This document shows, piece after piece, positions 1 through 53,558 of a stretch of DNA of 53,558 nt. The stretch spans positions 1 through 53,558 of the forward strand of contig JABSSW010000086.1 of assembly GCA_018902385.1 (NCBI GenBank), given 5' to 3'. Made by a program: the position numbers and the translations under genes. The stretch's first letter is position 1. Every line of letters begins with the position of its first letter. The notes below the pieces were generated by a model. It searched no databases. It was not told the origin of the DNA and saw only the letters and a program-made list of their open reading frames with translations. This stretch comes from Physcia stellaris. Its lineage: Eukaryota > Ascomycota > Lecanoromycetes > Caliciales > Physciaceae.

Positions 1-1100
1 TTCATTTGCAATAAAATTACAAAATTTCATCTTGAATTTCATTCAAAATAATCAAAATTTTTTGCAGAACAAAATATCGAAAACAACAAAAATAAAAATT
101 TTGAAACGTTTCAAATGTCGAAAAAATAATGAACGCAAAAAGCAACGCAATTCAAACAAAAATAAATTTAAAAACGATTATAATAAGCGCAAAAAGACGA
201 AAAAAAACTTCGACGAAAAAAAAACAATAATCGATTTCGATTGACAAGAATCGAAAAAAAACGATAAAAATTCAAATTTGATAATTTTAATCAAAATCAA
301 TCAAATTCAAAAAATTATGACGTTGAATCAAACGAATTCAAAATATTCACATAACGACAATAAGTGCAAAGATTGCGATAAATCAAATTGTATTTTCAAA
401 AATTGCAAAAACAAAAAGTCGAAAAAACATACATGAGAGATAGCATTCGATTCGAAATCAAAAAAATAATCGATTTGATGATTTTCAATCAAATTGACAC
501 AACGAAAAAATTTTATATTGAATGACGAAATTGATTTTAATTTTGACGAATCGTTTACGATCGATATCGAAATCAAAAACGTCAAACGTCGTCGAAGAAA
601 GTTTCGCATGATTAAATGCAAAAAAAACAATGATCAAAATAAATAAAAATCAAACGAGAAAAGCAAATTAAAATTCGAAACAATCATTGAATTCAAAAAC
701 AAAAATCAATTTGATAAGTAATATTTTTGTTAAACAATTTGAATTAAAATCATTCAACGTGTTTAATTGCGAAACAATGATTATCGATAATCATTTTTCA
801 AAATTTATGACGTTTATTTCGTGCAATTCGAAATGCAAAACGAGAACGATATGAATCGACGTTTTTTCAATGATAACTTTTTAGAAACGAATTTGACATG
901 AAACATGACGTTAAATTTGTCATGAATGCAATTATCAAACGCAAAAATAGATTGAAAATCGACAAAATCGAATCGTGATCATTGATTGTAAAATCAATTT
1001 TTTTAAATCGTAAATCGTATCGAAAAATCGAATCAAAAAATTAGTCAACGTTGTCGTCGATGACAAAAACAAATTTTCGTCATGTTCGTACGAGTTTTTC
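1..1100 (+). pseudogene. A gag C-terminus and probable aspartic protease remnant
   Basis: The start is an open, highly basic stretch (32-244) typical of a gag nucleocapsid tail. At 365-406 a plus-strand frame reads Cys-x2-Cys-x4-Cys-x4-Cys, the spacing of a retroviral zinc knuckle with Cys in place of the usual His. Around 731-850 a frame gives the FNCETMIIDNHFSKF pattern, which I read weakly as a retropepsin active-site region (LLDxGA...) with its Gly lost. Frames are interrupted many times. The assignment of the protease rests mostly on its position just upstream of the reverse transcriptase, so it is tentative; the zinc knuckle is firmer. Confidence 0.5.
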
Positions 1101-2640
1101 ATGACGAAAAAAAACATGAATAACGTATACATCGAACGACGAACACAAATCGATTCGATTTTTGCGAAAATAAAAAATAAATCAAATATCAAAATCATTA
1201 TATTCGAAATTTTGAAAAAATTCGTTGATTTGACAAATGAAAACAAAACATACGAATTATTTGATCACGAGTCAAACGATCATGTTATTGATTTGAAATC
1301 AAACAAAAAGTTTTTTTACGATTTCATTTATTCATTGTCAAAAACGAATTTAAAATATTACGAATTTATTTGAATAAATATTTCAAGAACGATTTCATCA
1401 AATTTTTCATTTTTTCAATCGAAACATCAATTCTGTTCGTCAAAAAAAGAACGAAACTTTGAAATTATATGTGAATTACAAAAATTTGAATTTTTGACGA
1501 TAAAAAATAGATATTTTTGTCGTTAATCGATGAAAATTTAAATCGTTTGAACAAAATTCGCATTTATACAAATTTCGATATAATAACAACATACAATAAA
1601 TTACGTATCAAAAAAAAACGAATGAAAAACGACGTTCAGAACACGATATGAACATTTTGAATATATCGTTTTATTTTTCGATTTTACTAATGCATTTGCG
1701 ACGTTTCAAAATTTCGTCAATAAAATTTTGATCGAGCGATTCGATTTCATTGTCATAATTTATTTGAACGATATAATTATATATTTCAGATTGAACGAAA
1801 AACAACACATCGAAAACGTCAAATGAATATTAAATCGTTTGCGAAAACACAAACTTTTATCAATATAAAAAAATGTAAATTTTTCAAAAACAACATTGAT
1901 TTTTAAATTTCGTTGTATTTTCAAAAAAAATACAAATGCAAAAAAATAAAATCGATGTCATACAAAAATAATCGACATTCAAAAACGTGTCAAAAATTTT
2001 GAAATTTTTGAAATTATGCAATTTTTATAAACGATTCATCAAACATTTCAATAAATTGACATTATTTTTAATTTTAATGTTAAAAAAATCAACAAAATTT
2101 CATAAAAAAAAAATCAAACGAAAACGTAATTCGAACAAAAATCGAAACAAAAATTACAACAAAAAACGATTGTCAAATGATTTTTTAATTTTCGAAATTT
2201 ACGAAATTTTCAAACGTTTACGAAATGCATTTTTGAAAACATTTATTTTGCAACATTTCGATTCGATTAAATTTATACGTGTAAAAATCGACGTTTCGAA
2301 CAAAATAATAAATAAAATTTTTTGTCAATTAAACGATCAAAATCATTAACATTCGATAATTTATTTTTTCAAAAAATTGATTTCAACGAAATGTAATTAT
2401 GAAATTCACGACAAAAAATTTTTGATCATAATTTTCGCATTCAAACAATGACGTTATTATTTCGAAAAAACGAAAAAACAAATATTCGTTTTGACGAATC
2501 ATCGAAATCTCAATCGTTTCATAATCACAACGAAACTATCATTTCGACAAATACGATAAGCGCAAAAATTGTTTCGTTACAATTTCGTCATCGATTATCG
2601 TTTTGACAACAAAAATTCAACGAACGATTTGTTTCGACGA
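1101..2640 (+). pseudogene. A reverse transcriptase and RNase H remnant
   Basis: RNA-dependent DNA polymerase and RNase H part of a Ty3/gypsy Pol. The open piece at 1101-1373 holds the RT entry region (DHVIDLKSNKKFFYDFIYSL, family form DHAIxLxPGxxPPxGPxYSL). Near 1640-1790 the palm reads FRTRYEHFEYIVLFFDFTNA and then YLND at 1761-1772, where active enzymes have YLDD: the first catalytic Asp is Asn. The open frame 1987-2349 is the thumb/connection (LKLCNFYKRFIKHF) and the start of RNase H (LQHFDSIKFIRVKIDVS). RNase H continues at 2380-2500 (NYEIHDKKFL) and ends near 2570-2640 with FVIDYRFDNKN. Trp positions are TGA. Catalytically dead. Confidence 0.9.
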
Positions 2641-4702
2641 TTTGATCATATGATCACAATTGAAAAAAAAATTGAAAACAATCGTCAGATTTTGACGCGT
2701 TTGCGACAATTTTTGCAATCGATTTCGAACGAATTTGAGATTTGCGTGAGCGAAATTCGAACGACGATGTTCGAATTCAATGACAATGAAAAAAACAAAT
2801 TTGCGAATGATTTTTTTGATTTTCAAAAATGTGCATCAAACGTGATCATCGATGAATGAAAAATATTAATATTGAATAATGCAACAATTTTTCAGTCGAT
2901 TAACGAAATGTTTGCAAAAAAACATATTCACGAACATGATATTGCATACGACGATAAAATTATTGACAATTTCGTCGAATTGATACATTCATTGTTAAAT
3001 CAAAATTCATGCGCGATTCAAATGAAACAAAAATTAATTATTTTTGATATGTCACATTCGCATTGACAAAACGAAAAAAAAATACTGTGACACGATGATT
3101 GTTTGTACGTTTCGTCAAATTTGAAAAAAAATGTCATAAAAACAAATCATGACAATTTTTTCGCTGATCATTTCGAAATAAAACGTATTTTTGAATTGAT
3201 ACGAAAAAAATATTATTGATTTAATCAAAAACGAAACAATTTCGAAAAAAACGTCGAACACGATTCGAACATGCGTGCACAAATAAAAAAAGCATTGCGA
3301 AACATGTATTATTTGCAAAAAAAACAAAACATTTCGTCACAAATCATATGAAAAATTCTCGTTTTTTTTTTATATCGAAATTCAAATGAGTTGATTTTAC
3401 AATGAATTTCGTAACGAATTTTTCAAAAAACAAAACATGAAATGAAACGACGTATGATGCAATATTCGTTGTGATAAATCGTTTGATCAAAATGACACAT
3501 TACATTTCAATCACGAAAACGATGATCGCAAAAGATTTCGTCGAAATTTTAATTCGAAAAATCATTAAATTTCATGATTTTTCATCGTCAATAACAACAG
3601 ACAAAAATTCGATTTTTATCGCTAAATATCATGACGCATTATGTTATGTTTTGAAAATAAAATTGAAATTATTCACGATTTATCATTCGCAAACAAATGA
3701 TCAAACGAAACGACAAAATTCAATCATAAAACAATATTTCAAAATTTTTGTCAATTTCGAGCAAAATGATTGAATGAAATTATTGTCGATGATTGAATTT
3801 GTTTATAACAATAATAAACATGCGTTCACGCAAATGTCATCGTTTGAAACAATCAAAAATACACGTTCAAAATGTTTTTCGAGAATTTTGCAAACTTTAA
3901 AATTAAATTCAAATTTGCTAAAAAGCATGTCGAAAAACTGATCGAATTGATGAAAATATTGAAAATCAATTTAATTTACGTTCAAAAACAACAAATCAAA
4001 TACAAAAATGCAAAAATCAAATTGATGAATTTCGACGTGAAAAATTACGTCAACGTCAACGTCAAAAATATTCGTATCAAACGCAACAAAAAATTGAAAT
4101 GAAAATTTTTCGAATCATTCAAAATATTGAATACAATAAAAAATCAAACATATCGCATAGATATATTCAAACATTGACGAATTCACAATGTTTTTCACGT
4201 TTCGTTGTTCGAAAAATCATATCTAAAAAAAAAAGAAAGTTTCGCTAAAATTCACATATCAGTCAAATGACATCGACATCGAAAAAAACGAAAAATTCAT
4301 CAATGAAAAATATTGAATCGAAATCATTTTAAACAACAAAATCTACAAAGAAAATCAAGTTTCGAACAAATCATATAATGAATCAGAATTTTATTATCTC
4401 GTTCAATGAAAAAATTACGAAAAACGTATTTGAAAACTCGTTTCAATGATCAAACATTTCAAAAATATGCTCAGAAAGTTTCATATGAAAAATTCGAAAA
4501 AAAACGATGTCAATAAAATCACGAATCGTCGACACGTTCGACGTCAAATAGATGTAATTTTCACGATGAAATTGTTGATAAGAAAATCAATATTTCACAT
4601 CTAACTCGATGTTATTTACTGTTTAAAACTTACGACGCATGAAAAATTGAATCGTGTCAAAAACATTTTCAGAAATTGTTGTTCGATCTGATTGAACGAT
4701 AA
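2641..4702 (+). pseudogene. A integrase and pol C-terminus remnant
   Basis: The integrase inserts element cDNA into chromosomes. A linker runs 2641-2870. The zinc-binding region lies at about 2870-3330, with a His pair in NHDNFFADHF. The core is in the open frame 3471-3773 (MINRLIKMTHYISITKT, then ITTDKNSIF, then SQTNDQTKRQNS). In the family these contain the D-D-E triad; here the first Asp is Asn and the Glu is Lys, only the middle Asp remains. After a TGA in place of Trp at about 3772 the frame continues as MKLLSMIEFVYNNNKHA. Further on, 3872-4102 and 4100-4220 encode the GPY/F-like C-terminal part (YRIDIFKH, then RIHNVFHVSL). Pol ends with ESCQKHFQKLLFDLIER and TAA at 4700-4702; the same tail is found in elements B and C. 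Confidence 0.9.
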
Positions 4703-5048
4703 ATATGAATGTGAAATATGATGTTGAATGCAACGATGAAAATATCGAAATTTGATATGTCAATTGCGATCGCGATTATTCGACGTTTATTTCGTTTGAC
4801 AATTTGCAATAACATATCGATTTTGATATACGAGAACAGAAAAATGAAAATAAAAAAATTCGAATTCGATTTCGTTGTCAACAATCAGTTGTCAATCATC
4901 AGATCGAAAATTGTGAATTGTACGAAATCAAACTCTCGATATTGAAAACAGCAAACAGTGAAGTCATCAAATCATGCTTTTTTTGAGTCATTCAAAAAGA
5001 TGTTTTCAAATTTTTAATGCAAATTGATTTGAATTGAGAAAAACAATC

Positions 5049-5140
5049 GATGCGAAAATCACGATCATAATGATTTTTCAAATCAACGATTTTCGATGCG
5101 AAAATCACGATCACAATGATTTTTCAAGTCATAAAATATA
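5049..5140 (+). repeat. Tandem hairpin repeat in the 3' untranslated region of A
   Basis: Two units of about 47 bp share the core GATGCGAAAATCACGATCA followed by AATGATTTTTCAA. Each unit has complementary ends (GAAAATCA and TGATTTTTC) around a short centre, so it can fold as a stem-loop. The same pair of units occurs in element G at about 37528-37612, just before its 3' LTR. The position between pol and LTR suggests a role in packaging, reverse transcription or 3' end formation, but no function is shown. Confidence 0.7.
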
Positions 5141-5220
5141 CAAATTTAGAAATTTTGTTACAAAACAGATGAAAAAATTCTGATTATCTCAAAAAATTTC
5201 GATGTTAAAAAAAAAACGCA

Positions 5221-5505
5221 TGTAAAACATTCAAAATTCAAATCGACATAAAATATGATCGAATTTCGATAAAATCGAAATATGCATCATGATCATTTGC
5301 AAAACAAACATCGAATTCGAAAAAATGCTGTTTGCATTTCTTTGTACAACAACAAACAACAAATCGAATGATTTGCAATTGAAATTTTTTATTCTTTTTA
5401 TTCGTACAGTTGTATATAGCGAGCAAATAGTGACTAAAATTTTTGATTTTTTAGAAATTAATCTAATTATCAATCAGAAACTATACATTTTTGATGTCAC
5501 ATTTC
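5221..5505 (+). repeat. 3' LTR of element A
   Basis: Starts TGTAAAACATTC, matching the TGTAAGAAATTC start of the G LTRs, and shares blocks along its length to CTATACATTT..TGATGTCA near 5481-5500. The end is blurred: similarity to G fades between 5501 and 5510, and the inverted-repeat arm is recognisable from about 5507. An open frame of 117 codons that crosses this LTR and runs into the arm (5289-5642) is not a gene. Its 5' partner is outside the window. Confidence 0.75.
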
Positions 5506-5506
5506 G

Positions 5507-6254
5507 TATTTTGCATTCAAAATATTCAAAATTAAAAACACAATTGCGAAAATTGACAAATCGTCACAAACATTTGATCGCGATAATTCAAAATTTTCAC
5601 AACACGATTGTTTTTGATGTTAAATTGAAATTCGAAATATGACAAAATATTCGAAATAAAATTAAATCAATCAACATTGTATTTCGATCGCATTTAAATC
5701 GATTTAAACATTTATAAATTGTTTTCGATCGTGTTCAATAATTTCAACAACAATTAAATGATTGTCAAAAATGAATATCGACAATGTTTAAATACGATTT
5801 ATAAATCGTGCGATCGCGAAAATTTTCAATATTCGAATACAATTTTTGAAATTTTCACAATTGACGTAATTGCAAAAATTATATATTGTTTGACATCGAA
5901 TCAAATTTGCATTAAATTCAATTTGTTTTCAATTATATTTTTCATTTTTATCATTTTTTTTGATTTTATTTGAATATATTTTTTGTTGCAATTTTCGTTT
6001 TCGATTTTTATGAATCGAAAAAAACGAAAGAAATCGTGAAAAAAAATAAACAATAAAAAAACAAAAAAATAAATTAAAAAATGATTTGAATACGAAAAGT
6101 AAATTAAAAGTGAAAAATGAATTATTGACGAAAAATGAATTGAAAACGAATAATAAAAAAAAAATTAAAAACGAATTAAAAACAAAAAATAAAAATAAAA
6201 ATGAAAAATGAATTGAAAACGAAAAAAATTGAACAAATAAAAAATCGTTGTTAT
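5507..6254 (+). repeat. Inverted-repeat arm IR-L, block 1
   Basis: This block is the reverse complement of about 41450-42185. Shared landmarks include the GATTTATAAATCGT stretch near 5800 and the AATATATTTTTTGTTGCAATT stretch near 5970, both found inverted near 41700-41890. The part 6050-6240 is a degenerate low-complexity run of short AATGAATTGAAAACGAA-like units, mirrored at 41463-41640. I recognise no gene in it. It ends with GTTAT (6250-6254), the left target duplication of element C. Confidence 0.88.
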
Positions 6255-6470
6255 TGTGAAATGCTATGCAATGATATGATATTATTACATAATTACACGA
6301 AAATATCGAAGTAAAAAGCAAATACATAAAAATCTGTAAAAACATATGTAAAAATTTGATTTTTGAATGCGTCAAAACGAATCTCGATTTTAACATTCGA
6401 TGTGATAAAATAACGATGTTAACTCGATGTTAATTTTGTTAAATATTGAATTCGATGTACGCTCGTCACA
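6255..6470 (-). repeat. 3' LTR of element C
   Basis: Direct repeat of 21211-21475. On the plus strand it begins TGTGAAATGCTATGCAATGA and ends GTACGCTCGTCACA. It lacks an internal segment of about 45 bp that the 5' copy has (around 21307-21355). The pattern ATGCAATGATAT...GTGATAAAATAA...CGTCACA is shared with the LTRs of element D. Confidence 0.92.
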
Positions 6471-7220
6471 TTATTTCTCGTTTTTTTTTCAATTTCGTCT
6501 CGAAACGATCAATTGAATTTTTTTCTCTTTGACGAACGTTTTGCGCAATCTAAATACGCTGTTGAATGACGTTGAATTGAATGATTGACGAAATGAAAAA
6601 ATAAATTCGAAATGTTGTGAAATCGATTTCGTTCGCGAAATCGATTCGTCAAAATTCGTGAAAACATCAAATCGATTTACGATGAAATGAACAATTTGAT
6701 CATGTTAATAAAATCATCGTAACAATGTTTAACGCATTGATATTTTCGCGTATGCGAAAATTTGTGTGTACATTGCATGCGACAAAACGTGAATGTAATG
6801 AATGTTTTGAAAAATAATCAATTCATACGTTTCGTCAAAAATAATTTCAACGAACATCAATAAACAAACAATTGCGAATTCGATTTAACGCGTCAACAAT
6901 TTTGAGAATTTTTGCAACATCAAATTGATATCACGAAACGAACAATTTGATCGTGTCGATAAAATTTTCGTCATCAAAATTAACGCGTCGATATTATCGC
7001 ATATACGATAATTGATTCGTACATTGCATTCAACGAAATGTGCATGTATTAAATTTTTTGAAAAACAAACATTTTAAACGAATTTTACAAATAGTTTCGC
7101 GCGTCATTAATAAACAATTGAAAATTTTGTTGACGAATTTGTAAATGTTCGAAATTTTTGACAATTTGTTGTTATTTATATTATTGCATGACTTTTTGCA
7201 TAACACGTTTTTTACATTAT
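6471..7220 (-). repeat. C 3' region with a 251-bp tandem duplication carrying a hairpin
   Basis: Between pol and the 3' LTR, two diverged units lie in tandem, period about 251 bp (about 6655-6900 and 6910-7110). Both contain ACATCAAAT..GA, ACAATTTGATC(A/G)TG and a TACATTGCAT block. Each holds a perfect short palindrome: arms ATTTTCGC/GCGAAAAT at 6742-6761 and ATTATCG/CGATAAT at 6993-7012. The arms differ between units but stay complementary. No coding sequence is seen here. Confidence 0.75.
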
Positions 7221-8286
7221 TTATTGTTCAATAAAATTTGACGACAATTTTTGAAAATGTTTTTGACACGATTCAATTTTTCATGCGACGTAAATTTTGA
7301 CAATAAATAACGCGAAATAACATGAAAACGAAAAATCGAAACAAAAATTATTTGAATCAATTTGACAATGAGTCGTAACGAATTCATGTTGACGTTTTTT
7401 GATCGATCATAAACGATGTTTACAATTTAATCATTTCGTAAAACAAATTTCGTTGTCTTTGAATTAGTTTCGTGAAAAGCATTCACGATGCTTTGAGCAT
7501 TTTGAAATTCGTCATCGTCGACATAATATCAAATTCGATCATGAGAATTTCAATTCGATCATTTGCAACGATATTGAAAACGATAATAATGATATCGAAA
7601 TTGTAATATATCATCGAATTTTCATTCAAACATTTCGTTTGCGATAATTGATTTTGAAAAATCGTTATGTTGTTTTTTCAACGAGTTTTTAAATTTTTTT
7701 TTTAATAATCAGAAATGAAAAATTGAATGAATGTGCATATCGTCGAGCAATTTCAATTCATAAACGAATTTTTTTTTTGATCATTTTATATGAGTTCAAT
7801 TTTTTGTCGTTCAATTTGTTTGACGAACGAATTGTTTTTATATGACGACGATTCAATCAAACGTAATTTTTTATTTCAAAATTTATTGAGAAACGAAATT
7901 TGTTGATTCGAACAATCATTTTTTGTTTTACATCGATAACATTGATTTTGACGTATTCGATAATACGATTCATTTTTTCGACAATAAATTCGTTTTGTTT
8001 AATCAACAAACGTTTTTTAATGATTTCGTAATCATCTAGATTTGATTCAAAAATCATTCGAGAATGATAACTTTTATTAGTGAAAAATGAAATGAATTCG
8101 ATGATTGTTGAAATATCGTTGTTGTCAACGAATTTCATGATATTTATTCAATCAATTCAATCGTTTTGACGATAATTGCAATACAGACGCAATCGAATTT
8201 CGATATTTTGATTCGTTCGTTCGATTTGATCATCGATTTCAAATTGAAAAGCAATGAACAATTTACATTTGATTTTTAATCGTTTA
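7221..8286 (-). pseudogene. C integrase second half and pol C-terminus remnant
   Basis: Minus-strand continuation of the C integrase on the left side of element B. From the right it reads IKCKLFIAFQFEIDDQIERT (about 8276-8190), which includes the catalytic Glu, then after two TGA codons the open frame 8138-7857 (MKFVDNNDISTIIEF..FFTNKSYHSRM), the family's MAEFAxNN...SPFFxNxGxHPRM block. A long coiled stretch and the pol tail ESCQKHFQKL follow, with TAA at 7223-7221. The matching first half lies at 14932-15480. The jump from homology with the B integrase to B LTR sequence occurs at about 8286. Confidence 0.9.
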
Positions 8287-8510
8287 TATCATGAATCGTG
8301 TTTGAATAAACGTATTATTGACTAACTAGACGAAAACAATAAGTTTGCAAAAACAAATAGATACAAAATGTTGAAATTGCAAACAGTGTGCGACGTCAAA
8401 TTTCAAATCACGCTAATTTCGACGTAAAATTAAAACATAGTTCGCTGTTCGATCACATATCATATCAACTATCTATTTGTCAAATTTATCTGTCAAACAT
8501 GTTCGTAACA
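8287..8510 (-). repeat. 3' LTR of element B
   Basis: Direct repeat of 14710-14931. Plus-strand start TATCATGAATCGTGTTTGAA, end TTCGTAACA. Retains slightly more CT/AG than its partner (for example ACTAACTAGA here versus ATTAATTAAA in the right copy), so the two LTRs were hit unequally by the same C-to-T process. Confidence 0.92.
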
Positions 8511-8652
8511 TTATTTTTTTCTTTTCGCGAGCGTCGTCTCGACGATTCGTTGTTGTTTCGAAATTTTGAAAATCTTGTTGATTGATTTGAATGTTTGAAA
8601 AATTCAAAAATTTCACGATCATCATTTTATTTTTTGATGTTTTGTTATCGTC
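8511..8652 (-). other. B 3' untranslated stretch
   Basis: Short stretch between the pol stop and the 3' LTR of B. It begins TTATTTTTTTCTTTTCGCG and shares a T-rich, CGTCTCGA-containing block with the equivalent place in C (6471-6510), D (46044-46085) and E (21929-21960). A polypurine tract would be expected next to the LTR on the minus strand (A-rich here), but I cannot define it. Confidence 0.5.
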
Positions 8653-10270
8653 TCAACGCTCGATAAAATTTGACAACAGTTTCTGAAAATGTTTTTGACA
8701 CGATTCAGTTCTCTATGCGATGTAAGCTTTGACTGTAAACAACATCGAAACGATAATAGAAACTGAAAATCGAAAAAAATCGAAAAAGTGAAAACGTAAA
8801 TGAATGCATCGAATTTGAAATTTTCAAATTCTAATCGAATGTAATTTCAATAAAAGTCAAAACGACGATTTTTTTTCGAAAACGACGACGATTTGCAAAA
8901 AAATCTTGAATATCGACGACGAAAATATTTGATTTAAACGATTTTGAATTTGCGACGATGAAATGATTTCGATGAAAATTTTTTATCACGTCGCGAACGT
9001 TATCGAATTCATCGTTATCGACGTAATATCACGTTCGATCATGTGATCAATTTGATCAATTGACACGATATTGAAAACGATTGTAATGATATCGAAATTT
9101 CAAAATATCGTTCATTTTTCATTCGAAATTCTCGTTGACTATAACAGAATCGAATGATTCGTTGATTTGATTTTCGAAAAAATCACAAAAATTTTTGCGA
9201 AAAAGTCAACAATGAAACACATCGTAAATTCGCATTGTTTCAAATAATTCGAATTGATAAAAATTGTTTCGACGTTTTAACATTTTGAACGAATTCAATT
9301 TTTTGTCATCGAATTTGTTAAATGATTTAACGATTTTGATGTTTCGTCGATTCAAAAAAACGTAATTTTTTTCGACGTATTTCACAACTTTGCGATGCTT
9401 GTTGATTTGAATTGTCATGCGTTTCTGAACTACGTCGACGTGATTTCGCACGTAATTGAGAATGTTTTGCATGATGTTTGTGATATTTTTCGCTTTGACG
9501 ATCAACAATCGTTCTTTTGTCGTGACATACGAAATAGAATTCGATGAAAAACTCATACGTGAATGAAAATTCTTGTTGACGAAAAACGATGACAATTCAA
9601 TAAATGCAAAAATCGCGTTGTTGTTTGCAAATTCGATCATAAATAATCAAACGTTTCAATCGTTTTGCATGTAATTGCAATATTGTCGCAATTGTTTTTC
9701 GATGTTTTGATTGATTTTTTCGATTTGATCATCAATTTTTGAATGAAAAATCGTGAAAAATTTACATTTGATGTCGAAAATTCTGCAAAAAATTTGTCAT
9801 ACGAAAAACACGAATTGAAAATCTCGATCAAATGTTATGAAAAAAAACAAATCATGAATACGAAACACGTATTGAATGAGTATTTTTGTTGTGATTTCAA
9901 CATTCGTGTTCTCGTTTTTCGCTGTACAGAATGCATAATGACGTTTTTTATTAAATTTGTCGATTATCGTGCAAATGACATTATGATCGTGAACGTCAAA
10001 TAATTTCGTGATGAAATCAATGAATATATTCGTTCAACGTTGCAAAAATATGATCAGAAAAATGAATAAATCGTTTTTACGATTTTTGAAAATTTTAATT
10101 CGTTGACATTCGTGACAATTACGTACGTATCGACGAATTGTTTTGCGCATGTTGAATCAATAATAATCACGACGTAAAAAATTTTTCATACGATTAAATT
10201 CAAAATGATTCGATGCGAAAAATTCATGAATTTTTTTGAAAAAATCAACGAACAAAAAAGCATCGACGAG
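8653..10270 (-). pseudogene. B integrase and pol C-terminus remnant
   Basis: Minus-strand integrase. The zinc-binding region lies about 10270-10030. The core begins near 10019 as DFITKLFDVHDHNVICTIID and runs through TFDRDFQF to DDQIEKINQNIEKQLRQYC near 9680. The D-D-E triad appears intact here, unlike in A. Two TGA codons replace Trp near 9640, then the open frame 9640-9206 reads MIEFANNNAIFAFIELSSFF and carries the C-terminal domain to KIVKSF..FELFETMRIYDVFH (family form ...LELPxxMxIHDVFH). The pol tail ESCQKHFQKL is at about 8720-8680, stop TGA 8655-8653. Still non-coding because of several stops. Confidence 0.9.
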
Positions 10271-10950: not shown

Positions 10951-12140
10951 TTTTTTTAAATAGATTGAAAATCTCTTTTGCTTTCGTAATTCATTCGAAT
11001 TTTACGAATTTCTTGATCATTCGAATGAAAATTTTGATTTTTTTCGAAAAATCACGAATGAAACGTCGATAAAAATTGACGAAATTCACGAAAATTTGTA
11101 TTTTTTGAAATTGATAAAACGTTTCAATCAATTATGATTTGTATTTTTTTTGAATTCATGCGAAAATCATTCATCGAAAATATAACGTTTAAAAAAATCA
11201 TTTTTTTTTAAAAAATTCGCATTTTTCGATATTCATTTGTAAATCGATTTTTTTGAATTTTTTCAATATTGCTCGAACGTGCACGATATGTTTTTTTTTG
11301 AATTTGTTGTAAATGAATATGTCATTCAAATAAATTTGACAAAATTCGTTCAAAAAATTGAAATAAAAAATCATTTATGTAATGTTGTCAATTTGCAAAA
11401 TCGTTGATTAATTCAAAAATAATATTCGATATTTATACGATTTCATAAAAATGACGAACGTGATGAATTTTTCACTTTTTTTCATTCATTCGAAATTTAT
11501 TGAAAATTGATATGATATTCAATTTGATCAAATATTTGCAATTTTGAATTTTGATCAAAGTTTTTTCAATCAAAAAAATGAAATATCGATTGCGTTTCGT
11601 AATATAATTGAATCGACGATAATTCACACACAAACGTAATTGATCGTTGAATTTGATCGCAAATAAAACAAATGAAACATATGTCGTTTGATTAAATACG
11701 ATAAATTTTTTTTGCAAATTTTTTTTCAAATATTTTTTCAATTTTTTGAGTTTGAATTCGAATAAAGAATACATTCGATTGCGAAACAAAAAATTGCTAT
11801 CGTTCAACAATTCGATTTTATGATCGTATGATTTATGAAAAAGCAATTTGATGATTTTTTGAAAATCAAATATTTTTGATAAATGACGAAAATATTTTGA
11901 CATTTTTTTCATTATGCGTTCGAATATCGATTTGATTTGTTCGTGTTTTAAAATTTTTTTGATCATGACGACGATTTTTAACGATTCAAAATTCGTTTGT
12001 AATGTTTTGAACGCGAAATCGATTTGATTGATCGTAATGAAAAAACATTGAACGTTTTGTTTTCGATTTTTGACATCGATCAACAAACAAAAAAAAATTG
12101 CATCAATTATTGCGATATTCATCGAATCGTCAAAATTCAA
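10951..12140 (-). pseudogene. B reverse transcriptase remnant
   Basis: The open frame 12140-11472 (222 codons, among the longest in the window) holds the protease-RT linker and the RT fingers: KSYDHKIELLNDSNFLFRNR (family H-SYDHKIxL), MYSLFEFKLKKLKKYLKKNL, VLFAIKFNDQLRLCVNYR and YLIKLNIISIFNKFRM. The first catalytic Asp of the family TKLDI block is Asn (KLNI). Downstream, 11460-11150 carries the palm in broken frames; 11332-11321 encodes YLND instead of YLDD, so the second catalytic site is damaged too. Connection and thumb are at about 11150-10950. Confidence 0.9.
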
Positions 12141-13060
12141 CTTTGAAAATAGCGAAAATTCTGATTGTTGTTTTTTCGTTTTTCATCGTTTATTACGTTG
12201 ATTTTTCAGTTTTTTTTTTTTGACGAATGTCGTTTTCGTAACAGTCGTAATATCAATTTTTGAATTATTTGATTCGATTGTTGACGATTCGTCGTCGATA
12301 TCGATTTTTGAATGAATTGAACATTCGAAACATTTCGAATCGATTATATTTGATTCGTTTTCAACAATAAAAGATAAAAATTTGATTTTGAAACGAAACA
12401 AAATGATATATCGAAATTTTATCGTCGTTATGTGTTTTGTATTATTTTTCGACGATAATTTTGCATCGCGACGTCAATTAAATATATTTCATCGACGATT
12501 TGATTTGAAAATTTTTAAACGACGAATTTGCATCGTTTGATTGAATATGTTGTCGTGATGATTGCATTTAAACGATTTAAAAATCAATTTATCGTAAATC
12601 ATGTTCAATATAATTTCATGTTTGTTCATTCACGATTTTTTTAAAATTATCGAATGATTATCGAAATCAATGATTAACAAAAAAACGATCAATTCGAAAT
12701 GTAATTTTATCGTCAATTTGAAATATATCGCGTGAATTATAAAAAAAACATGACGATCATCGAATTCAATCAATGATTTCGATTTCAATAAAAATACGAA
12801 TTTCATGTTCAGCATGTTGCACACAAATTGCGCGATTTTTTTATCAATGAACGCATAATCGATTGCATCAATGTTTATTAAAATTTTTAATTTATGTTTA
12901 TTATCGTTGAATGATAACGTACAAATGATAATTAAAAATCGTTTGATGAAAAAATCAAACATATTATCATCGTGAATAAAATTTTTTTTTAAACATTCAT
13001 CAATCGCGTTTTTGACGTGAATTGTCAATTTTTCGAATCAAATTCGCTCGAATCGATATT
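12141..13060 (-). pseudogene. B aspartic protease remnant
   Basis: Retropepsin of Pol. The open frame 13028-12630 reads NDNKHKLKILINIDAIDYAF, where the family has xLIDTGATxYAF: D-T-G has become N-I-D-A context with the Gly lost. It continues KIAQFVCNMLNM, HVFFIIHAIYFKLTI and NHSIILKKS, the order of a fungal gypsy protease domain (HPIILGxPW at the end). The stretch 12620-12141 is linker, with 12401-12183 open and rich in Ser/Lys. The equivalent piece of C is 18756-19046. Confidence 0.82.
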
Positions 13061-31231: not shown

Positions 31232-31261
31232 ATTGTAATTGATTTCTAATCTAACATAATG

Positions 31262-31573: not shown

Positions 31574-31636
31574 AAAAACAAACTCAAACTGATTTTGATT
31601 TCTCTCGATGACAACAAAACGTTTCGCGACAATGTG

Positions 31637-32083: not shown

Positions 32084-32361
32084 TGTAAGAAACTCAAAGT
32101 TCAGATTTGCAAACAATGCGAGTCGAATCTCGTCAAAATTCGAAACATCAATTCATGAGACGATCAGTTTCATTATACTAGTTACTCGACACTCATATCG
32201 CATATCGACTAGATATTCATGCGCAAAAACTCAAAAATTCGTACAATTGAACAGACAAAACGAGTATATATTGCGTGATTTGCAAAACAATTAGTTCAAC
32301 AGTTATTAGTTTAATCATACTATTGTCTTTGTTATACATCTCTGATGTCATGCTCTTTACA
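32084..32361 (+). repeat. 5' LTR of element G
   Basis: Direct repeat of 37756-38033, same length (278 bp), no gaps in my alignment. I count about 25 differences, all transitions and nearly all at CT or AG dinucleotides. Confidence 0.95.
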
Positions 32362-34740
32362 TTCTAATAACTACAATAATCTATCGGTTAGCATCATTCG
32401 TGTATAGCATTCAGTTCAACGACTGAACGTGTCTTGTTCTCAGAATTCGATTTGAACGAGAAATTTCTTCTATAAGTGTCGAAGCGAGAAATACGTTTTT
32501 CGAAAACTGAAACGAACATCAAATCGAGAATGAAAACTTTACAGCATACAATTAAGTATCGCAATTCAAATTGAATGTACTATCACATTGTCACGTATTG
32601 TTCAGCATAGAAAGCAAGTCAAAACTTGAAAAAACAAAAAGTTTTCAAACAGAACTGCGAGAGCAAGCTATTTCAACGCGATAAAAAATTTACAACATAC
32701 AGCAATTGACTTCAATCATTCGATCTCGTTGTTGTTTTCAGCGACAAACGTCAATCATTTCAAGTTCTCGACTATTCATAGCAGTAACAGCAAATCAAAG
32801 AACGTCAAAACAATTGAAAAAGTTTGCGCATTTTGTCGAAACATTCATGCAAAATGAATCTTTTACATTCAAATTATTGAGAAACAACGCGAAAACAACG
32901 ATTTCGATCGTTTTGTTTCTTTTGCAAAATATCAAAAGTCAAAATATTAAAACATTTTCAAGAATTGATCAAACGATGATTTCAACAAGAAGCATAACAA
33001 AATATTCTGTTCAGAAAATCACATGACGACATTTACAGAAACTCGTAACTGCAAAATTGCATGATGATTTCAATAAGAAATTTCTTAGACGATTTAAAAG
33101 TGACGCAAATGCGAAGTCGTTTTTTGCAATAAAATTCAAAATTAAAACGATAAGAAATTCACGTCTGATAAAATTAATAAAAAGTCAATCAAGACGATTA
33201 CATCGTCGATGCTACATAGCACAAGAAATTGCGAATGTAACAAACATGAATCGCGATTGATTGACTCATTTTCAGTCAAATTCGCATAGTGAATGTTTTC
33301 ATAAATCATAAATCACACGTCATAAGCAATAAGCAACAAACAATAACAGCGACGAGTTTTTTGCGACGAATCATGTTGACAGTATCGTCAAACATTGTCG
33401 CAAGAAGTTCTGCATGACTAAAAGCAATAGAAACAAAATCGTTGACGAAAAATCATCGAAATTCGAAAACAAAAATCAATTCGAAAGCGATGTTTTTATT
33501 GAATTTGAACAATTTCGTTTTCAGTTTTCAATCACGAAATTGCGATTTTCAACAACAAACAATTCAGATCATTAGCGTCTGCTTCGTACGAGTATCAATT
33601 TTGAACAAAAACGATCGCAAACGTTTTTTGAACGAAAATTTTTAGAAATGATTCGAATCGATCGATTTCGTGAAACTGTTCTGAATGCAATTTGATCAGA
33701 ATGAATATTTGTTCGATTTTGACATTCTTCAATGCAAATCTCTTCATCATAAATCGTTTCGAGCACATCGAGTCGAAAAAATCAATCGTTTTTACTTTTC
33801 ATAACACGAAAAAAGTCTTCGTTATATTCGTACAAATGTCTCATAGCGAGAGAACGACTTCAAACAAAACGCAAATCATACGATAAACACAAATCTTTTG
33901 TTTCTATCGAAAATCAAAAACATATACAGAAACATCAACAAGAAAGTTGTTCAATGAGCACGCAACAAATCTGACGAACATGTGATATGTTTGACGAGTT
34001 CACAATAGATCACAACATGCGATAAATATGAGAGCGAATATTAAAGCTCGAGAACAAACAAAATTCGAAATCGAACAAAAAATCACTTCTTAGTTTTATT
34101 TATTTCTTTATCGAAAGATGACTAATAATCTTGAAAGTTTATCTGAATAATAAAAGAAACAACTCTATCGAATTTGCAGTTGAGCAAGAAAATATGCTGT
34201 ACAAACATTGAAAACAATTTTATCAAATCTTTCAATTCTGTCATTCGTTCGACGAAAACGTCAATTCTATCGTTTCGCTCATAGAAATTATTTGACCATT
34301 ATAGTTCGACGAAGATTACAATCTGTATAGATCATATGAATGTCGCACGCAACAGATTTCGCATAAAACAAAGTATAAAAACGAAACGACGATAAATCAA
34401 ACTGTTGAATACATCGTTTTATTTTTTGTTTCGTTGATTCGTTTGCACAATAGATTTCTGACGAAACGTCTAGAATTATACGTTATAATGAATTCAGACA
34501 ATACGATCACATAGTTCGTTTTTTCGATGAATGTGCGAACACGAAAACAAAAATAACTTCGTCGTCTTTTCAATGAATGTGCAAATGCAGCGAAATGAAT
34601 CGCTATACAAATAGTAATCGACAACGAGCAATGCGTTCGAAATTCATGAAATCGCACAAATTGCAAGCACAAAAAATTTCAATAAATCTGATTTCTTGAT
34701 TTCATGCTAAAGAATTGACAGAACTTCATGAAAAAATAAA
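32362..34740 (+). pseudogene. G gag-like region, unassigned
   Basis: Expected to hold the leader and gag of G, but no zinc knuckle or gag core is recognisable. Open plus pieces at 32706-33026 (106 codons, Ser/Thr/Arg-rich), 33057-33260 (basic, HDDFNKKFLRRFKSDANAKS) and 33442-33645 may be gag fragments. The RT found in A is absent. Minus-strand frames here (for example 34672-34397) look like shadows. Confidence 0.4.
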
Positions 34741-37160
34741 ACAATTGTCGAAACAATCAAGCTTTCAAACGTCGACGAAATGCACTTTTGAAAGCATTTA
34801 TTCTATCATAATTCAATTCGACTAGATCTGCTCATGTGAAAATCGACGTTTCGATTATAGTAGCATGATTTCGACAACGCAATAAGTCATAAATAGCGTT
34901 CGATCACAATAATATCATCGAAATTTCAAAACAATCGTCAATCTGACGTTTTGCGACGATTTTTGCGAACAAATCGATCAACTCGAGTCTGCTAAATGAG
35001 AAAATCACAATTACGATGATTTTTCAAGTCATTTCGATGTGACTCAAGCAATAATGCAGAAGTCAAGTCATAATGAAATCATAAATTTTTCGAAAAATTT
35101 CTGACAATCGAAAAAAACATTTCGTGTTCGAGTGAGTTTCAATTCAAAAAAAAGATTATGTATTTTTCGAGTGATTTTCAAAAAGAAATTATAAATTTTT
35201 CGAAAAATTTTTGACAACGAGAAATTAGTTCTTCGAATGATCTCGTTCAAGCAAGCGAAAAAAACAGTTTTTCGAATGATTTTCTCAACGCTCTCGATTG
35301 TGCATCAGACGTGATCGTCGATGAATATAATAATACTGATAATGCGCGAATTCTCGAGTCTGATCAATGAATGATTGAACAAAAACATATTCACGAATCT
35401 GAAATAAAAAAAGACATTGACGACGACTTTCAAACTCATACATAAATAGATGATTTAATTCGCTCATTGTCGTAAATTTCATGTGCAATTGTGAAACAGA
35501 AATTAGTTACTTTTGATATGATCACGCTCGCATTGACGATAATAGACGAAATTGAAAATTTAGCATGCAATTGCTTTACGTGTCATTAAGTTTTAATAAG
35601 AAAAACGTCGACAATATAGACAATTTTTGATCGAGCATTTCGATGAAGACATCTTGAAATCAATACGGAAATATTGTAGATCGAACAGAAATTATAAAAA
35701 AAAACGTCGTCAATAAAGACAATTTCTGATCGAATTTCGATGTGAAACGCATCTGATCGAACGTTTTGATGAGAAACATCTCAAAACATATGTTGATTTA
35801 ATAAAGCAAACGAGCGAGATGATTCATTGAACATCGAACACGATTCGAGCATGCAAACACGATCGCAAATTGCGAGATATAAGTCATTGCAAACATCTCG
35901 ACAGAATTTGAGCATGTTCATAAAAGTCGAAGAACGCTACAAAGTCAAGAATTGCGAAATATGAGTCGTTTGTCAAGACATCTCGTCAGATATATTTTTA
36001 CATGTAATGCGACAAGAAATCGAAAGCGAGATATAAATCAATTGTCAAGACATTTCGTTCGAACTGAAACATACGAATAAAAATCATATTTTAACATGTG
36101 CGCAAAACTGCAAGATATAAATTGCTGTAAACATCTTGACATAATTTAAACATGCAAACATGAATCAAAGATTTGAATAATGAATCAGAAAATTGCGAGC
36201 AAGCATTTCATAAATTATACAATAAATTATCGTTTCAATTCAACGAACATTGACATGAGTTAATTTTACGTGAATTTCATAGCATACTATCGAAAAATAG
36301 AGCATGAATCATACATTCAAAAAACGACGATCATAAAAAATTTCGCATATAGCAGAATTTCATGACTTTTCTCGTCATGTAAAGCACAATAAATAAAACA
36401 ATCAATTACTTTTGCAAAATCGTTTTCAAAACATGCATAATTCATCGAGAATATCGTCGCTCGAGACTCTGTCGCAATTCTTTAAATTTCAAAATAAATC
36501 AAGTTTGCAAATTCGTTCGATTGCTGAATATGCATAAAAATTCAAAAATAATCAAACGATTGCAAAGACATCAAAAAAGTCGTCTTGCTTTCTGAAAAAA
36601 TTATAGTTAAAAGAAAAAAAAAAATTCGCTAAAATTTTTGCATCAGCTACAAAACATCGACATTGATAAAAAAACACTCATAAATATAATCAAGTCGCGA
36701 ACAAGTCGTGCAACAAATTCAAATCAAATCATATAACGAAAAAGTATTTGAAAATCAACAACACGACAGTACAGTTTTTTTGATGATACAATCGACTCGA
36801 AAACAATCTAATATCATGACGTGTTCGATGTCGAGCGCTTTTCGCAAATATAATTCATTTGACAAATCAATTGATTTGAATAATCATGTCAATATCGCGA
36901 CACGATAAACGTTTTATAGTTTCGAATAAATGATCAAATTATGATCAAATCATACAACGAAACGTATTTGATAGTCGATATCGCAACGTTCATACGTGCG
37001 ATTTTTTGATGATACAATTGACTCGAATAATCGTGCACGATTTCATGTCACTAATTTTGTGTTGCTTATTGTCTAGAATTTACGACGCATGAAAGACTGA
37101 ATCGTGTCAAAAACATTTTCAAAAATTATTGTTCGATCTGACTGAGCGCTGAGTATCGTG
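34741..37160 (+). pseudogene. G pol remnant, rearranged
   Basis: Patchy homology to A Pol. AFKRRRNALLKAFIL near 34770-34815 corresponds to A RNase H FKRLRNAFLKTFIL. Linker sequence follows (35072-35290), with a duplicated ATAAATTTTTCGAAAAATTT(C/T)TGACAA unit at 35083 and 35190. The integrase zinc region is expanded to four units (35869-36180). An 85-bp stretch is duplicated at 36723 and 36947 (AAATCATA(T/C)AACGAAA...TTTGATGATACAATxGACTCGAA). The pol tail SCQKHFQKLL equivalent is at about 37105-37135. Frames are broken throughout. Confidence 0.75.
35869..36180 (+). repeat. Four-unit tandem repeat in the G integrase zinc region
   Basis: Four diverged units of about 72-88 bp, starting near 35870, 35951, 36023 and 36108. 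Each has (T)GCGAGATATAA(A/G)T-like sequence, then TTGTCAAGACATCTCG(T/A)CAG-like sequence, then ACATG. Element A has a single equivalent at about 3285-3345. The expansion happened in the G lineage. Confidence 0.65.
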
Positions 37161-37527
37161 ATAAAATAAAAATAGAAAATCGAAAAGATTTTCGAAATTT
37201 GATGTATTCAATGCGATCGCGATTATTTCATCAATAAAAAATCATACGTTGTTTTTGATATTCAAATCACTTTCGTCAACTCATCGACTTCGATATAGAA
37301 AACAGAAAAATAGAAAAGAAAATATTGACTCAAATTCAAATTTCATTGTCATCAATTAATTGTCAGTCATCAAACGAAAATTGTGAATTGTACGAAATCA
37401 AATTTTCGATCTTGAAAGCAACAAACAGTCGAGTCATCAAATCATGCTTTTTTTGAGTCATTCACGAAAATGATTTTCAGATTTTTAACGCAGATTGACT
37501 AGAAATCGAGAAAAATGATAAGATATT

Positions 37528-37612
37528 CGATGCGAAAATCACGATCACAGTGATTTTTCAAATTTCATAGAATATTCGATGCGAAGATCGCGATCATAAC
37601 GATTTTTCAAAT
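37528..37612 (+). repeat. Hairpin doublet in the G 3' untranslated region
   Basis: Two units TCGATGCGAA(A/G)ATC(A/G)CGATCA followed by GATTTTTCAAAT, period about 47-50 bp, matching 5049-5140 of A. A third, lone unit occurs at about 34996-35033. Between the doublet and the LTR lie two tandem CATATGAATACAG units (37630-37665). Confidence 0.7.
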
Positions 37613-37755
37613 CAGTTTCACGAATACAGTTCATGAATACAGCATATGAATACAGCATATGAACATCGACTCATACAATTCTAACAATTGATTTAACAGT
37701 TGATCGAATCGAGCATTGTCATCTCAAGAAATTTCGATGTTAAGAAGAAGACGCG

Positions 37756-38033
37756 TGTAAGAAATTCAAAGTTCAGATTTGCAAACAGTGCGAGTCGAAT
37801 CTCGTCAAAATTCGAAACATCAACTCATGAAACGATCAATTTCATCATATTAGTCACTCGACACTCATATCGCATATCGATTAGATATTCATGCGCAGAG
37901 ATTCAGAGATTCGTACAATTGAACAGACAAAACGAGTATATACTGCGTGATTTGCAAAACAATTAGTTCAGCAATTATTAGTCTAGTCATACTATTGTCT
38001 CTGCTATACATTTCTGATGTCATGTTTCTTACA
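37756..38033 (+). repeat. 3' LTR of element G
   Basis: Partner of 32084-32361; starts TGTAAGAAATTC and ends GTTTCTTACA, followed by TTATA. Confidence 0.95.
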
Positions 38034-38942
38034 TTATATTCGACATTTGATTGATCGCGATCGCGATAATCTATTTTCGACATGTCACGTTGTGATTGTC
38101 TATTTTCTCGTTGCTCGCGAATGTTTCTATTTTTGACATTGATCTCTCGTCGATCAATTTGTTCGAAAAACTGTTTGTTAATCAATTTTCATCATGAATG
38201 TTTTCGATCATTCAAATCTCGTAAAAAGTCACTCAATTTGATGTCATTGATAAATTTATTGACGTGTAGTTGAAAATCAACGTCGAACTCGTTTCAAATT
38301 TGTAATAGTTGATTGAATATTGACAATTCAATTGATTTGTTTAATCGAATTATTTTCTGCGCGTATTTTCTAAATTCACGTTTATGTTGTGCATTCGTCA
38401 TACTGTATAATTTTTTGACGAGTTTTTCATGATTTTAGTTGACGATTTTCGAAATTTCTTTACTAAATATTTTTTTCACTGATCTAGATTTTGATTTAGT
38501 AGCAAAAATTCTTTTTCATGTCGATAAAAAATGACGTATATCAATTCAAAGCGTCATTTTTTAAACATTGAAAAAAATTGCGACGTACGATGTTTTCGTT
38601 CTTTGTAACAACGAAATTTTTTGTTTTAACTATGAACAAATGAACGTCACGAAAGACGATGCTTTCGCTAATAAATTTCATAATTGCGTCGATAATTACA
38701 GATTTGTCGTCATGAAACGAGTCGAAAAAGTCTAGATGTTTCGACTGAAATTGACTATTGTCATTGTCATCATTGTCATTTTCAAATGAATCGAATGAAT
38801 CGAATGATTCAACTGATTTCTGCTGATCTCGTTGATTGATCTGTTGCATTTTTTGACGTATTTCTGCTCTAATATTCTCGATAGTTTGAATAACGACGAC
38901 ACTAACGACAATCGTGATAGTTGCTTGAAAAATTGAATTCAT
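38034..38942 (-). pseudogene. F gag N-terminal half
   Basis: The open minus frame 38942-38541 (133 codons) reads TIENIRAEIRQKMQQINQRD, an acidic SFDSFDSFENDNDDNDNSQF tract, FHDDKSVIIDAIMK and NIVRRNFFQCLKNDALN, the arrangement of a fungal gypsy gag. After a broken stretch (38540-38190) the frame 38185-38040 continues KQFFEQIDRREINVKNRNIR and ends SNVEY at the G insertion. Gag makes the virus-like particle; no zinc knuckle is seen because the gag C-terminal half lies left of G. Confidence 0.82.
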
Positions 38943-40357
38943 GAAAACAGCTATTGAGTTAAATTCTATGAATTGATCGTATATGATTTTCTCGACTGAC
39001 GTCTCGCGTGTAATAGTCGAATTGCTATCGATAAACAGATTATTGTTGATTTGTTGATTATCGATAATAAAACGATGATCTGAATCGATAATAAATGAAT
39101 AGTTTGAGACACGAGAAATTCTAACGTGAGTTTGATTTCGTTCGACTACGAGAATATCGTCTTCGTATCGAAATCGATTTTTTATACGTGAAACGATAAT
39201 TTGAAATACAACTGTTTTACGATTCGAAATGATTGAAATATCATTAAATGTCGAATTGTCGTCAGATGTTTCGATTTTTTGTCTAGATTGAAAACTTTGA
39301 TAGACAGATGTTTGTCTGTACTTTTCGATTTCTTTAAAGAATCGTGAAGCGATCGCTTTAAAGATAGCAATGTTGATAATTCATTCTGACGAATATTCTA
39401 GAAATTCGATTGACGTTATTTTGATTTCTCGAATTGTTGACGATTTTGCTGATCGAAAATTGATGTTTACAAAAATTATCACTGTCTGAATGATTTTTTT
39501 TGATAAAATTTTTGTCAACGAATGATTTGCTAACTTAAACTCATGAAGATGTCACGCAGTGACGACGATCTTTTTGCTTATCGATTGAGTTGAAATACGC
39601 GAGACTGAAATATCAAACGAAATCAATTTGATTGTCTAGTTAAAAATGTTTGTTATGTAATGACAAACTGATACATTACAATGATTTGTCAATTAGAGCA
39701 AATATTGCGTCAAACGATGACAACGAAATGCAATGAAATAAAAATAGCAAGAATAAATCAACAAAAAAAACGAGAAAATTTTCTGAAAAGAATGACGAGA
39801 CTTTTCGAAAAAACAGACGTTAAAAGAAACAAACGCTAAAATAAAAATATTCGAGCGACAAATTCGTTTGACGTGATTCGTCATTTAGCAAATTCGAAAA
39901 GAGTTGACACGATGAAAAGTCGCAAACTAAATAGAAATCGATTGTTGATTCGAAAACGAGATTGTCGATGTAAAGTTGTTTGAATTGAAATCTGCGAAAA
40001 ACTTTTGAATGACAGCTTTGTTGTTGATATTTGAATTGATTTTTTCGACTCAATTTGTTTCGAACTTCTCGACAACGAGATATTGAAATTGATAAACGCG
40101 CACGTTATGATTCGAGCGTTTTGTCAACTCATTCGACTGTGAATGACGTGTCGAATTCATGAGTAAATTGATTTTTCACGACAGTTAAATCGACGATTTA
40201 AAATTTTATGATTGACTATGATTTGTCAAACTGATGAAACTGCTGAAACAATACGTTTGATTGTTGACAAACTCGATTTGATGTAAAACGACGTATTCGA
40301 TCGACAATCAATGATGTCAAATACGTAATACAGATCGAATCTATGATGCTATCATTT
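38943..40357 (-). other. F 5' leader or upstream gag region
   Basis: About 1.4 kb between the gag core and the 5' LTR. Open minus frames of 60-80 codons (39370-39182, 39884-39693, 40053-39820) show no domain. The frame 39370-39182 (SLKRSLHDSLKKSKSTDKHL) may be the gag N-terminus. CT/AG are frequent, so this part is lightly mutated. Confidence 0.45.
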
Positions 40358-40478: not shown

Positions 40479-40484
40479 ATCATG

Positions 40485-52619: not shown

Positions 52620-52830
52620 TATTTTAATTGATATTTTACATATCAATTTTCAAAAATCGTTTAAATTTGCAAAATTTTGATTTTTTTATTTCATATTTCA
52701 CAAATCAATTTTCAAAAATTGTTTGAATTTGCAGAAAAAAATTGTTTAAATTTGCAAAATTTTGATTTTCATTTGATATTTTATAATTTAATTTCGAAAA
52801 ATTGCGTAAATTTACAAAATTTTGATTTGT
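52620..52830. repeat. Degenerate tandem repeat, period about 70-80 bp
   Basis: Three to four diverged units of ATATTTxACA(T/A)ATCAATTTTC, then AAAAAT(C/T)GTTT(A/G)AATTTGCA, then AAATTTTGATTT, at about 52630, 52695, 52740 and 52775. Confidence 0.65.
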
Positions 52831-53558
52831 TTATGTTTCATTAATAAATTTCAAATCACATTTTATAATGACAATAACATTCGTAAAAACATTCGTAAAA
52901 TCGACATTCGTATGAACAATGAAACAACGTATCAATATTTTTTTAAAATGAATAAATTAACGTTTAATAATTTAATCAAATTTTTTCAATAAAATCGACA
53001 AATTGAAATATTTTTTTGAAATACAAAACACACGACATACATTTTGAAAATTTGATACGAAATATTCGAAATTTTGTCATGATTTTGTTTCATGAAATAA
53101 ACATTTTATGATCGATTTTTATGAATTAATTGAAAAATTATCAATAAATCGTTCGAAATTGAACGACAATCGTTGAACAAATATGAAAAAAAAAAGAAAT
53201 AATTTTCGTTTTGAAAAAATTCGAAAATTTCGAACAAAAAAAAATTAAAACAATTTTGAAATTTCGTTAACGTGAAACAAATGATGATTCGCACGCATTT
53301 GCAAAAATTTTGAATAAATTAAACAATTTCGCAAAAAAATATTCGAATGTCGATCGAATACGTTCGATAATGAAAAATGCAATAATAAATCGAATAAATA
53401 TTTTTGAAATTTCAAAAAAACAAACAAATTCAAATGTTTCAATTCAAAATTTAACACAAATTTTTAATAAAAAATACGACAATGCAACATTTTTTACGAC
53501 GAGTTTTTTGTCACAATTGAATTTGATACGAACAAATCGCGAATTAAAATATAAATTT

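Follow-up and report, generated by a model that had tools for sequence, protein, structure and literature searches.

Hypermutation resembling repeat-induced point mutation, with a reversed 3'-neighbour rule, in the lichen-forming fungus Physcia stellaris

Contig JABSSW010000086.1 of the Physcia stellaris assembly GCA_018902385.1 is considered here over positions 1..53558 of the forward strand, and this whole stretch of 53,558 bases is referred to as the window. P. stellaris is a lichen-forming fungus of the family Physciaceae. Dinucleotide counts and repeat matches characterize the entire window as DNA derived from repeats, with T now standing on both strands where C once preceded C or T, a pattern that is compared below with fungal repeat-induced point mutation (RIP). 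CC occurs once and GG twice, CT 579 and AG 660 times, and the counts of CA, TG, CG, and TA are 3068, 3354, 3038, and 3322, respectively. With strands pooled, the observed-to-expected ratios (O/E) are 0.00 for CC, 0.24 for CT, 1.26 for CA, 3.45 for CG, and 0.45 for TA. The three observed CC/GG sites (positions 32386, 34296, and 35667) compare with 1764 expected from base composition and with a lowest value of 1657 in 200 mononucleotide shuffles. The first-pass annotation, made from the letters alone, had given this number exactly, and its description of CT/AG as strongly depleted and of CA/TG and CG as common agrees with the ratios, CA and CG being undepleted.

Repeats account for much of the window, with 27,432 of its 53,558 bases matching either a 200-kb genome sample or another part of the window itself. 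Positions 1..9981 (plus strand) are homologous to a second locus (L024, G000:C140) at 84.7% identity in a blastn comparison of fetched loci, both copies being saturated. The segment 48432..50500 (plus strand) has many further genomic copies, the longest at 85-94% identity; a query spanning 48001-50500 returned at least 54 matching pieces from the same genome, and another probed piece returned at least 153. A less saturated part, 28001..40000, shows a GC content of 0.30-0.32 in 2-kb bins, contains all three remaining CC/GG sites, and probably represents younger insertions. It includes the segment 35099..38000 (plus strand), which was aligned with a less mutated copy, L028 (G000:C49:125455-128409), and scored for pairwise substitutions.

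All three open frames of at least 200 codons in the window lie on the minus strand and are free of Pro, Gly, and Trp: 279 codons at 38544..39380, 252 codons at 30506..31261, and 236 codons at 11475..12182. None of them matches a Pfam family at E 0.01. Comparison with the open frame of a related locus (L026), to which the 236-codon frame is 60% identical over 235 residues, identifies the latter as a remnant of a Ty3-like reverse transcriptase. The window was also considered as an organelle genome, an assignment rejected on the finding of no tRNA by ARAGORN (bacterial code) and no Rfam family.

The genome sequence analysed comprises 43.97 Mb in 147 contigs, from which twenty 10-kb stretches were sampled for composition. 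Twelve stretches (L005-L012, L014, L015, L017, and L018) are normal throughout, with GC 0.48-0.51, CC O/E 0.91-1.01, and CT O/E 0.99-1.11. The other eight (L013, L016, and L019-L024) are wholly or partly mutated: L019, L021, and L024 are mutated throughout, with GC near 0.23 and 0-2 CC+GG in 10 kb, L013, L020, L022, and L023 combine mutated and normal DNA, and L016 carries a partly mutated piece. Among 200 bins of 1 kb, 51 hold at most 5 CC+GG, 141 hold more than 60, and 8 lie between, proportions that are not a genome-wide estimate because the contigs were chosen by rank. Per kb, normal DNA and the window differ sharply in CC+GG (117 vs 0.1) and CT+AG (131 vs 23), and their densities are 53.1 vs 56.7 for CG and 139 vs 120 for CA+TG. 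Block borders in L013, L020, and L023 switch within 100-200 bases, and mutated blocks adjoin normal DNA within larger contigs (L013 on C10, 908,572 bases; L020 on C80, 132,461 bases). The first-pass annotation had recognized that its proposal would fail if CC/GG were equally rare across the genome; all 12 stretches without blocks are normal, and the depletion is regional, not genome-wide. At 7342-7980 of L011 (G000:C6:300001-310000), DNA repeated in tandem every 135 bases or so has normal CC/GG density, so that short tandem units seem to escape. The P. stellaris genome paper gives 46.57 Mb and a GC content of 43.32%, and no RIP analysis is reported in its accessible text (PMC7513301; cited papers are represented here and below by the accessible portions of their text).

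The direction of change was read from repeat alignments, excluding gapped cells throughout and, in the 15-copy, 5'-neighbour, and L025 comparisons, also sites at which the other copy has A or G. C>T and G>A account for 512 of the 544 substitutions between the window segment 35099-38000 and L028. C-to-T changes number 272 at CpC (19 kept), 220 at CpT (170 kept), 14 at CpA (381 kept), and 6 at CpG (314 kept), with only 0, 5, 3, and 4 changes, respectively, in the opposite direction. The 15 other matching pieces compared with L028 are changed at 1133/1269 CpC, 917/1371 CpT, 171/1433 CpA, and 98/1132 CpG sites, and the order of CpA and CpG varies among them. A second set is anchored on L025, a Ty3-like element of normal composition with reverse transcriptase, RNase H, and integrase zinc-binding domains. 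It comprises seven mutated copies out of 24 matching pieces (one being L025 itself), and excludes partial pieces as well as C25:17810-20307, which is full length and more diverged (70%). Here, C-to-T changes affect 2177/2226 CpC, 2008/2380 CpT, 112/2217 CpA, and 57/1965 CpG sites, against 1/5, 11/415, 71/2183, and 58/1972 in the opposite direction. The near equality at CpG (57 vs 58) indicates no directional change there, in keeping with an unreduced CG density, and CpA shows a slight directional change (112 vs 71). CpC and CpT are far more mutated than CpA and CpG in 23 of 23 copies (16 against L028 and seven against L025), and CpC more than CpT in 22 of them. The rule originally proposed from the letters, C to T before a pyrimidine on both strands with CC hit hardest, thus reappears in the alignments as CpC > CpT >> CpA, CpG; changes fall at CpC and CpT rather than mostly at CpA, which supports a preference reversed relative to canonical, CpA-directed RIP. 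Separately, L026 and L029 are both nearly intact and share 96% identity over 1200 bases; of their 41 C/T differences, 30 lie at C before a pyrimidine (CpY), a tilt the same way that is not used as evidence.

The two targets are lost in sequence. In 500-base bins, CC+GG has fallen to 27.8 per kb at GC 0.35-0.40 and to 2.7 at GC 0.30-0.35, where CT+AG still stands at 102 and 61, respectively. Across the GC classes down to GC 0.20, CA+TG declines only from 139 to 126-113, and CG density does not drop until the lowest class. CpC is therefore lost first and CpT later.

When CpC/CpT loss was applied to 110 kb of normal DNA from the same fungus, most of the remaining composition was reproduced. The rates were tuned by hand to the CC and CT densities, with 0.003 per round at CpA and CpG, so that only the other densities count as predictions. 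Simulated and saturated DNA compare, per kb, as 49.7 vs 55.8 for CG, 137.5 vs 109.8 for CA, 132.9 vs 125.2 for TC, 86.9 vs 79.1 for AC, 13.9 vs 13.1 for GC, 50.2 vs 65.7 for TA, 136.7 vs 139.2 for AT, and 381.5 vs 402.8 for AA. CpA-type and CpG-type rules simulated on the same genome's DNA were rejected, both lying far from the observed densities. The usual RIP indices of the window are 0.46 for TpA/ApT, which reflects no accumulation of TpA, 1.36 for (CpA+TpG)/(ApC+GpT), and -0.91 for the composite. The composite ranges from -0.85 to -0.99 in mutated blocks and from -0.56 to -0.67 in eleven normal stretches. These indices consequently rate the mutated blocks as less RIP-affected than the normal DNA of this genome, and other genomes of the CpY type may likewise be scored as RIP-free.

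The rule leaves a distinctive imprint on coding sequence. When three slightly overlapping open frames of L025, each of at least 150 codons, are compared with the seven copies, Trp codons have become stops in 145 of 146 cases and Gln codons in 5 of 294. Under CpA-type RIP, Gln codons would become stops, whereas in P. stellaris it is the Trp codons, a practical consequence of the CpY rule. Long frames without Pro, Gly, and Trp also arise and appear in protein databases. A protein search with the 236-codon frame of the window gave 272 matches, of which the best 120 were examined. In 45 of these (P0194-P0237 and P0239; none was dropped), Pro is kept in 0 of 750 and Gly in 0 of 389 positions of the L026 open frame, which serves as a relative at 33-73% identity and not as an ancestor. 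His-to-Tyr changes number 11/263 and Leu-to-Phe changes 230/1329, the latter being as CpT loss would give. The assemblies behind these matches may derive from the same or related lichens. Stops in reverse-transcriptase matches look, by eye, mostly like TGA; the stop counts relied on here are those from the L025 copies.

A second Ty3-like family (matches P0238-P0312) was compared with the match P0272. Of 119 other listed matches, 58 at 70% identity or more were counted, and 61 fell below 70% identity or 120 residues. In the 58, Pro is kept in 196 of 995 and Gly in 44 of 316 positions, Pro-to-Leu is common (209), and His-to-Tyr (3/298) and Leu-to-Phe (6/1565) are rare; some of these matches have lost most of their Arg. 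Sampling open frames biases the view of stop-forming changes, and that of His-to-Tyr less. Since Pro-to-Leu is common, Leu-to-Phe rare, and Arg lost in some members, the rule in this family seems different in detail, with CpA apparently spared and CpG apparently hit in some members, and other fungi may thus follow a further mutation rule that spares CpA. No relative was found in viral contigs. The genome-contig search returned a single relative, L052 (NYXK01000080.1), labelled as a Deltaproteobacteria metagenome-assembled genome, with a retroelement-like reverse transcriptase match at 3001-3579 (31% identity). This contig is possibly a eukaryotic contaminant; its normal composition makes it uninformative about the rule, and the comparison with other organisms accordingly stands at the protein level.

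A PF00145 profile search detects four stretches in three genes of the genome, namely two RID-type genes (RID-A, L003; RID-B, L001, at G000:C6:791557-792528) and one DIM-2-like gene (L002). The methyltransferase repertoire that the first-pass annotation had suggested looking for is thus present. RID-A carries SPPCQ and LEQT, RID-B carries SPPCQ and MEET, and both extend to GNAVPP in later exons; the DIM-2-like protein has the motif LENV and a long N-terminal part. All three genes thus have catalytic motifs. A tree of catalytic pieces was built from 66 rows, comprising the fungus's own RID-B and DIM-2 pieces, P0075 for RID-A, the matches P0001-P0039, and 24 picked from P0076-P0190. The tree places the RID-A and RID-B rows apart with a Shimodaira-Hasegawa-like approximate likelihood ratio (SH-aLRT) of 96, the root and the long branches being unsure. 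RID-B clusters with the RID-type proteins from Aspergillus candidus and Talaromyces islandicus (SH-aLRT 95), and its named matches come from these two species and Heterodermia. RID-A occurs, among the best 120 of 150 matches, in at least 12 named lichen genera besides Physcia, including Gyalolechia. RID-B relatives (L001 and the matches P0019 and P0021-P0025) comprise MEETFG kinds and SEETDG kinds, the latter of which may reflect an altered catalytic pocket. Among matches to the cytidine-deaminase profile PF00383, the best lies at G000:C64:178666-179121; its six-frame translation runs across four TGA codons, owing to introns or to its being a mutated copy.

Taken together, these observations make it probable that repeats in P. 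stellaris undergo active RIP-like hypermutation with the target order CpC > CpT >> CpA, CpG. C:G-to-T:A transitions are concentrated in repeated DNA in all 23 copies, and the probed mutated DNA is repeated and sharply bordered. To our knowledge, it is not understood how RIP picks its cytosines. Deaminases of the AID/APOBEC type select a cytosine by the preceding (5') base, cytosine-5 methyltransferases by the following (3') one; the 3' rule therefore favours a RIP-like process linked to a methyltransferase whose target recognition is altered. Among the options named at first pass (a RIP-like pathway, a deaminase, or a methylation-linked process), a methyltransferase-linked RIP-like pathway gains from the 3' rule, and an AID/APOBEC-type deaminase loses because the 5' base matters little. 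In the proposed mechanism, duplicated DNA would be recognized, probably premeiotically by analogy with RIP, and a RID- or DIM-2-family cytosine-5 methyltransferase with a pocket accepting a 3' pyrimidine would mark or deaminate the target C.

Several observations weigh against so simple an account. The border of the mutated piece in L016 (G000:C40:20001-30000) is gradual. One copy, L032, reverses the usual order by a small margin (CpC 64/71 vs CpT 87/94), and, because the copies are interrelated, their changes cannot be counted as independent of one another. CpA does not escape entirely, as its excess of 112 over 71 and the misfit of the simulation indicate; that simulation is close except for excess CA and deficient TA, suggesting a minor CpA component or ordinary later mutation. 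The genome also contains eight matches to the cytidine-deaminase family PF00383. Within L016, the piece at about 4000-7400 shows GC 0.28-0.54 in 100-base bins and retains some CC, and it is perhaps a young target midway through mutation.

Assignment of the reader to any single enzyme deserves less confidence than the process itself. Among the three genes, RID-B is weakly favoured, because RID-A occurs in further lichens, including Gyalolechia, in one of which RIP has been reported by index methods (PMC7882544). It is quite conceivable that RID-A or DIM-2 is the reader instead, or that separate enzymes act on CpC and CpT: the genome has each of the three genes, with complete motifs over the parts read, and the two targets disappear at unequal rates. 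The index-detected RIP of a Gyalolechia (PMC7882544) is a weak point against RID-A, whose presence in 12 further lichen genera means that it alone would not explain the CpY rule. A broader proposal, that Physcia and its relatives possess a RIP system with its own CpY-specific RID-B reader and that CpA-sparing RIP is common in fungi and missed by screens for CpA loss, is advanced tentatively; the homologous frames compared with P0272, with Pro and Gly mostly lost and His kept, support its second half.

A slower origin appears improbable. Repeats methylated at CpC and CpT, as in methylation induced premeiotically (MIP), could deaminate over a long time, which would also yield a 3' rule and leave unmethylated DNA alone, and older copies are more depleted. 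However, L049 differs from L025 by 668 substitutions in about 2.5 kb, of which 657 are C>T or G>A and 11 are others, with 317/319 CpC and 320/339 CpT changed; such a ratio indicates a burst rather than slow accumulation beside other substitutions. The scarcity of intermediate bins (8/200) and the lack of directional loss at CpG, the usual target of methylation decay, likewise speak against it.

Editing of retroelement cDNA or melted DNA by a single-strand cytidine deaminase of the AID/APOBEC kind is more doubtful still. It would account for C-to-T changes on retroelements and could draw on the deaminase-family matches in the genome, but such enzymes choose by the 5' neighbour, which here has little effect: in the 16 copies compared with L028, the mutated fraction is 0.87-0.93 for CpC and 0.60-0.70 for CpT whichever base precedes, and in the L025 set that for CpT is 0.81-0.88. 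Furthermore, every 500-base bin of the seven copies is mutated on both strands, whereas cDNA editing favours one. A genome-wide bias, contaminant contig, or assembly artefact, which the small and largely repetitive window contig might suggest, is excluded for practical purposes by the normal stretches and the blocks joined to normal DNA inside the C10 and C80 contigs, and related frames without Pro or Gly are found in other assemblies too.

P. stellaris thereby offers a natural specificity variant that is clean, nearly saturated, and opposite to the CpA rule, and the identity of the neighbour-base reader becomes directly testable once its RID and DIM-2 proteins are set against those of CpA-type relatives. 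The process is a RIP-like hypermutation with a reversed 3' rule, distinct from canonical RIP. With the latter, as known from Neurospora crassa and Leptosphaeria maculans, it shares dense two-strand C-to-T change in repeats, sharply bordered AT-rich blocks, and genes of the RID and DIM-2 types; it differs in that CpA is the main canonical target, whereas P. stellaris mutates CpC first, nearly spares CpA, and builds up no TpA. The order in N. crassa is CpA>CpT>CpG>CpC, and CpC is also last in Trichoderma reesei (PMC5496416); about 90% of RIP in L. maculans falls on CpA (PMC4352252). CpA with some CpT is described for Stagonospora (PMC2621366), and CpA with CpC-to-TpT double changes for Monilinia (PMC8959702). 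According to a survey of 1,239 genomes, RIP-like defences share the CpA preference (PMC12543289), and a search limited to open-access text found no CpC-first RIP. The lichen fungus Cladonia rangiformis resembles P. stellaris in its AT-rich, sharply bordered repeat blocks and its RID and DIM-2 homologues (PMC12542154). In MIP of Ascobolus immersus, too, a RID-class methyltransferase, Masc1, targets repeats (PMC4352252), but MIP entails methylation without mutation, whereas the P. stellaris DNA is mutated.

Other non-canonical systems resemble the P. stellaris rule in part. CpG-type hypermutation (TpCpG in Microbotryum, and that of Tuber and Rhizoctonia solani AG8) likewise converts C to T outside the CpA context (PMC4352252, PMC4014442), although CpG is untouched in P. 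stellaris. Heterozygous single-nucleotide polymorphisms of R. solani AG8 show the shortest of four spacings at CpC (214 bp, vs 370 for CpG), a pattern alike in genes and repeats, and the authors describe a CpG bias (PMC4014442). RIP targets have been summarized as CpA, CpT together with CpA, or CpG (PMC4352252). The CpT-rich type, found in Magnaporthe oryzae, Botrytis cinerea, and Sclerotinia sclerotiorum, has a 3' T among its preferred targets and RID present, but retains CpA as the main or second target and does not list CpC as a signature (PMC4352252). The view of the CpY rule as reversed RIP therefore holds for its CpC-first, CpA-sparing character and less for its CpT component; as CpT-rich RIP beside CpA had already been described (PMC4352252), the new parts are that CpC comes first and CpA is nearly spared.

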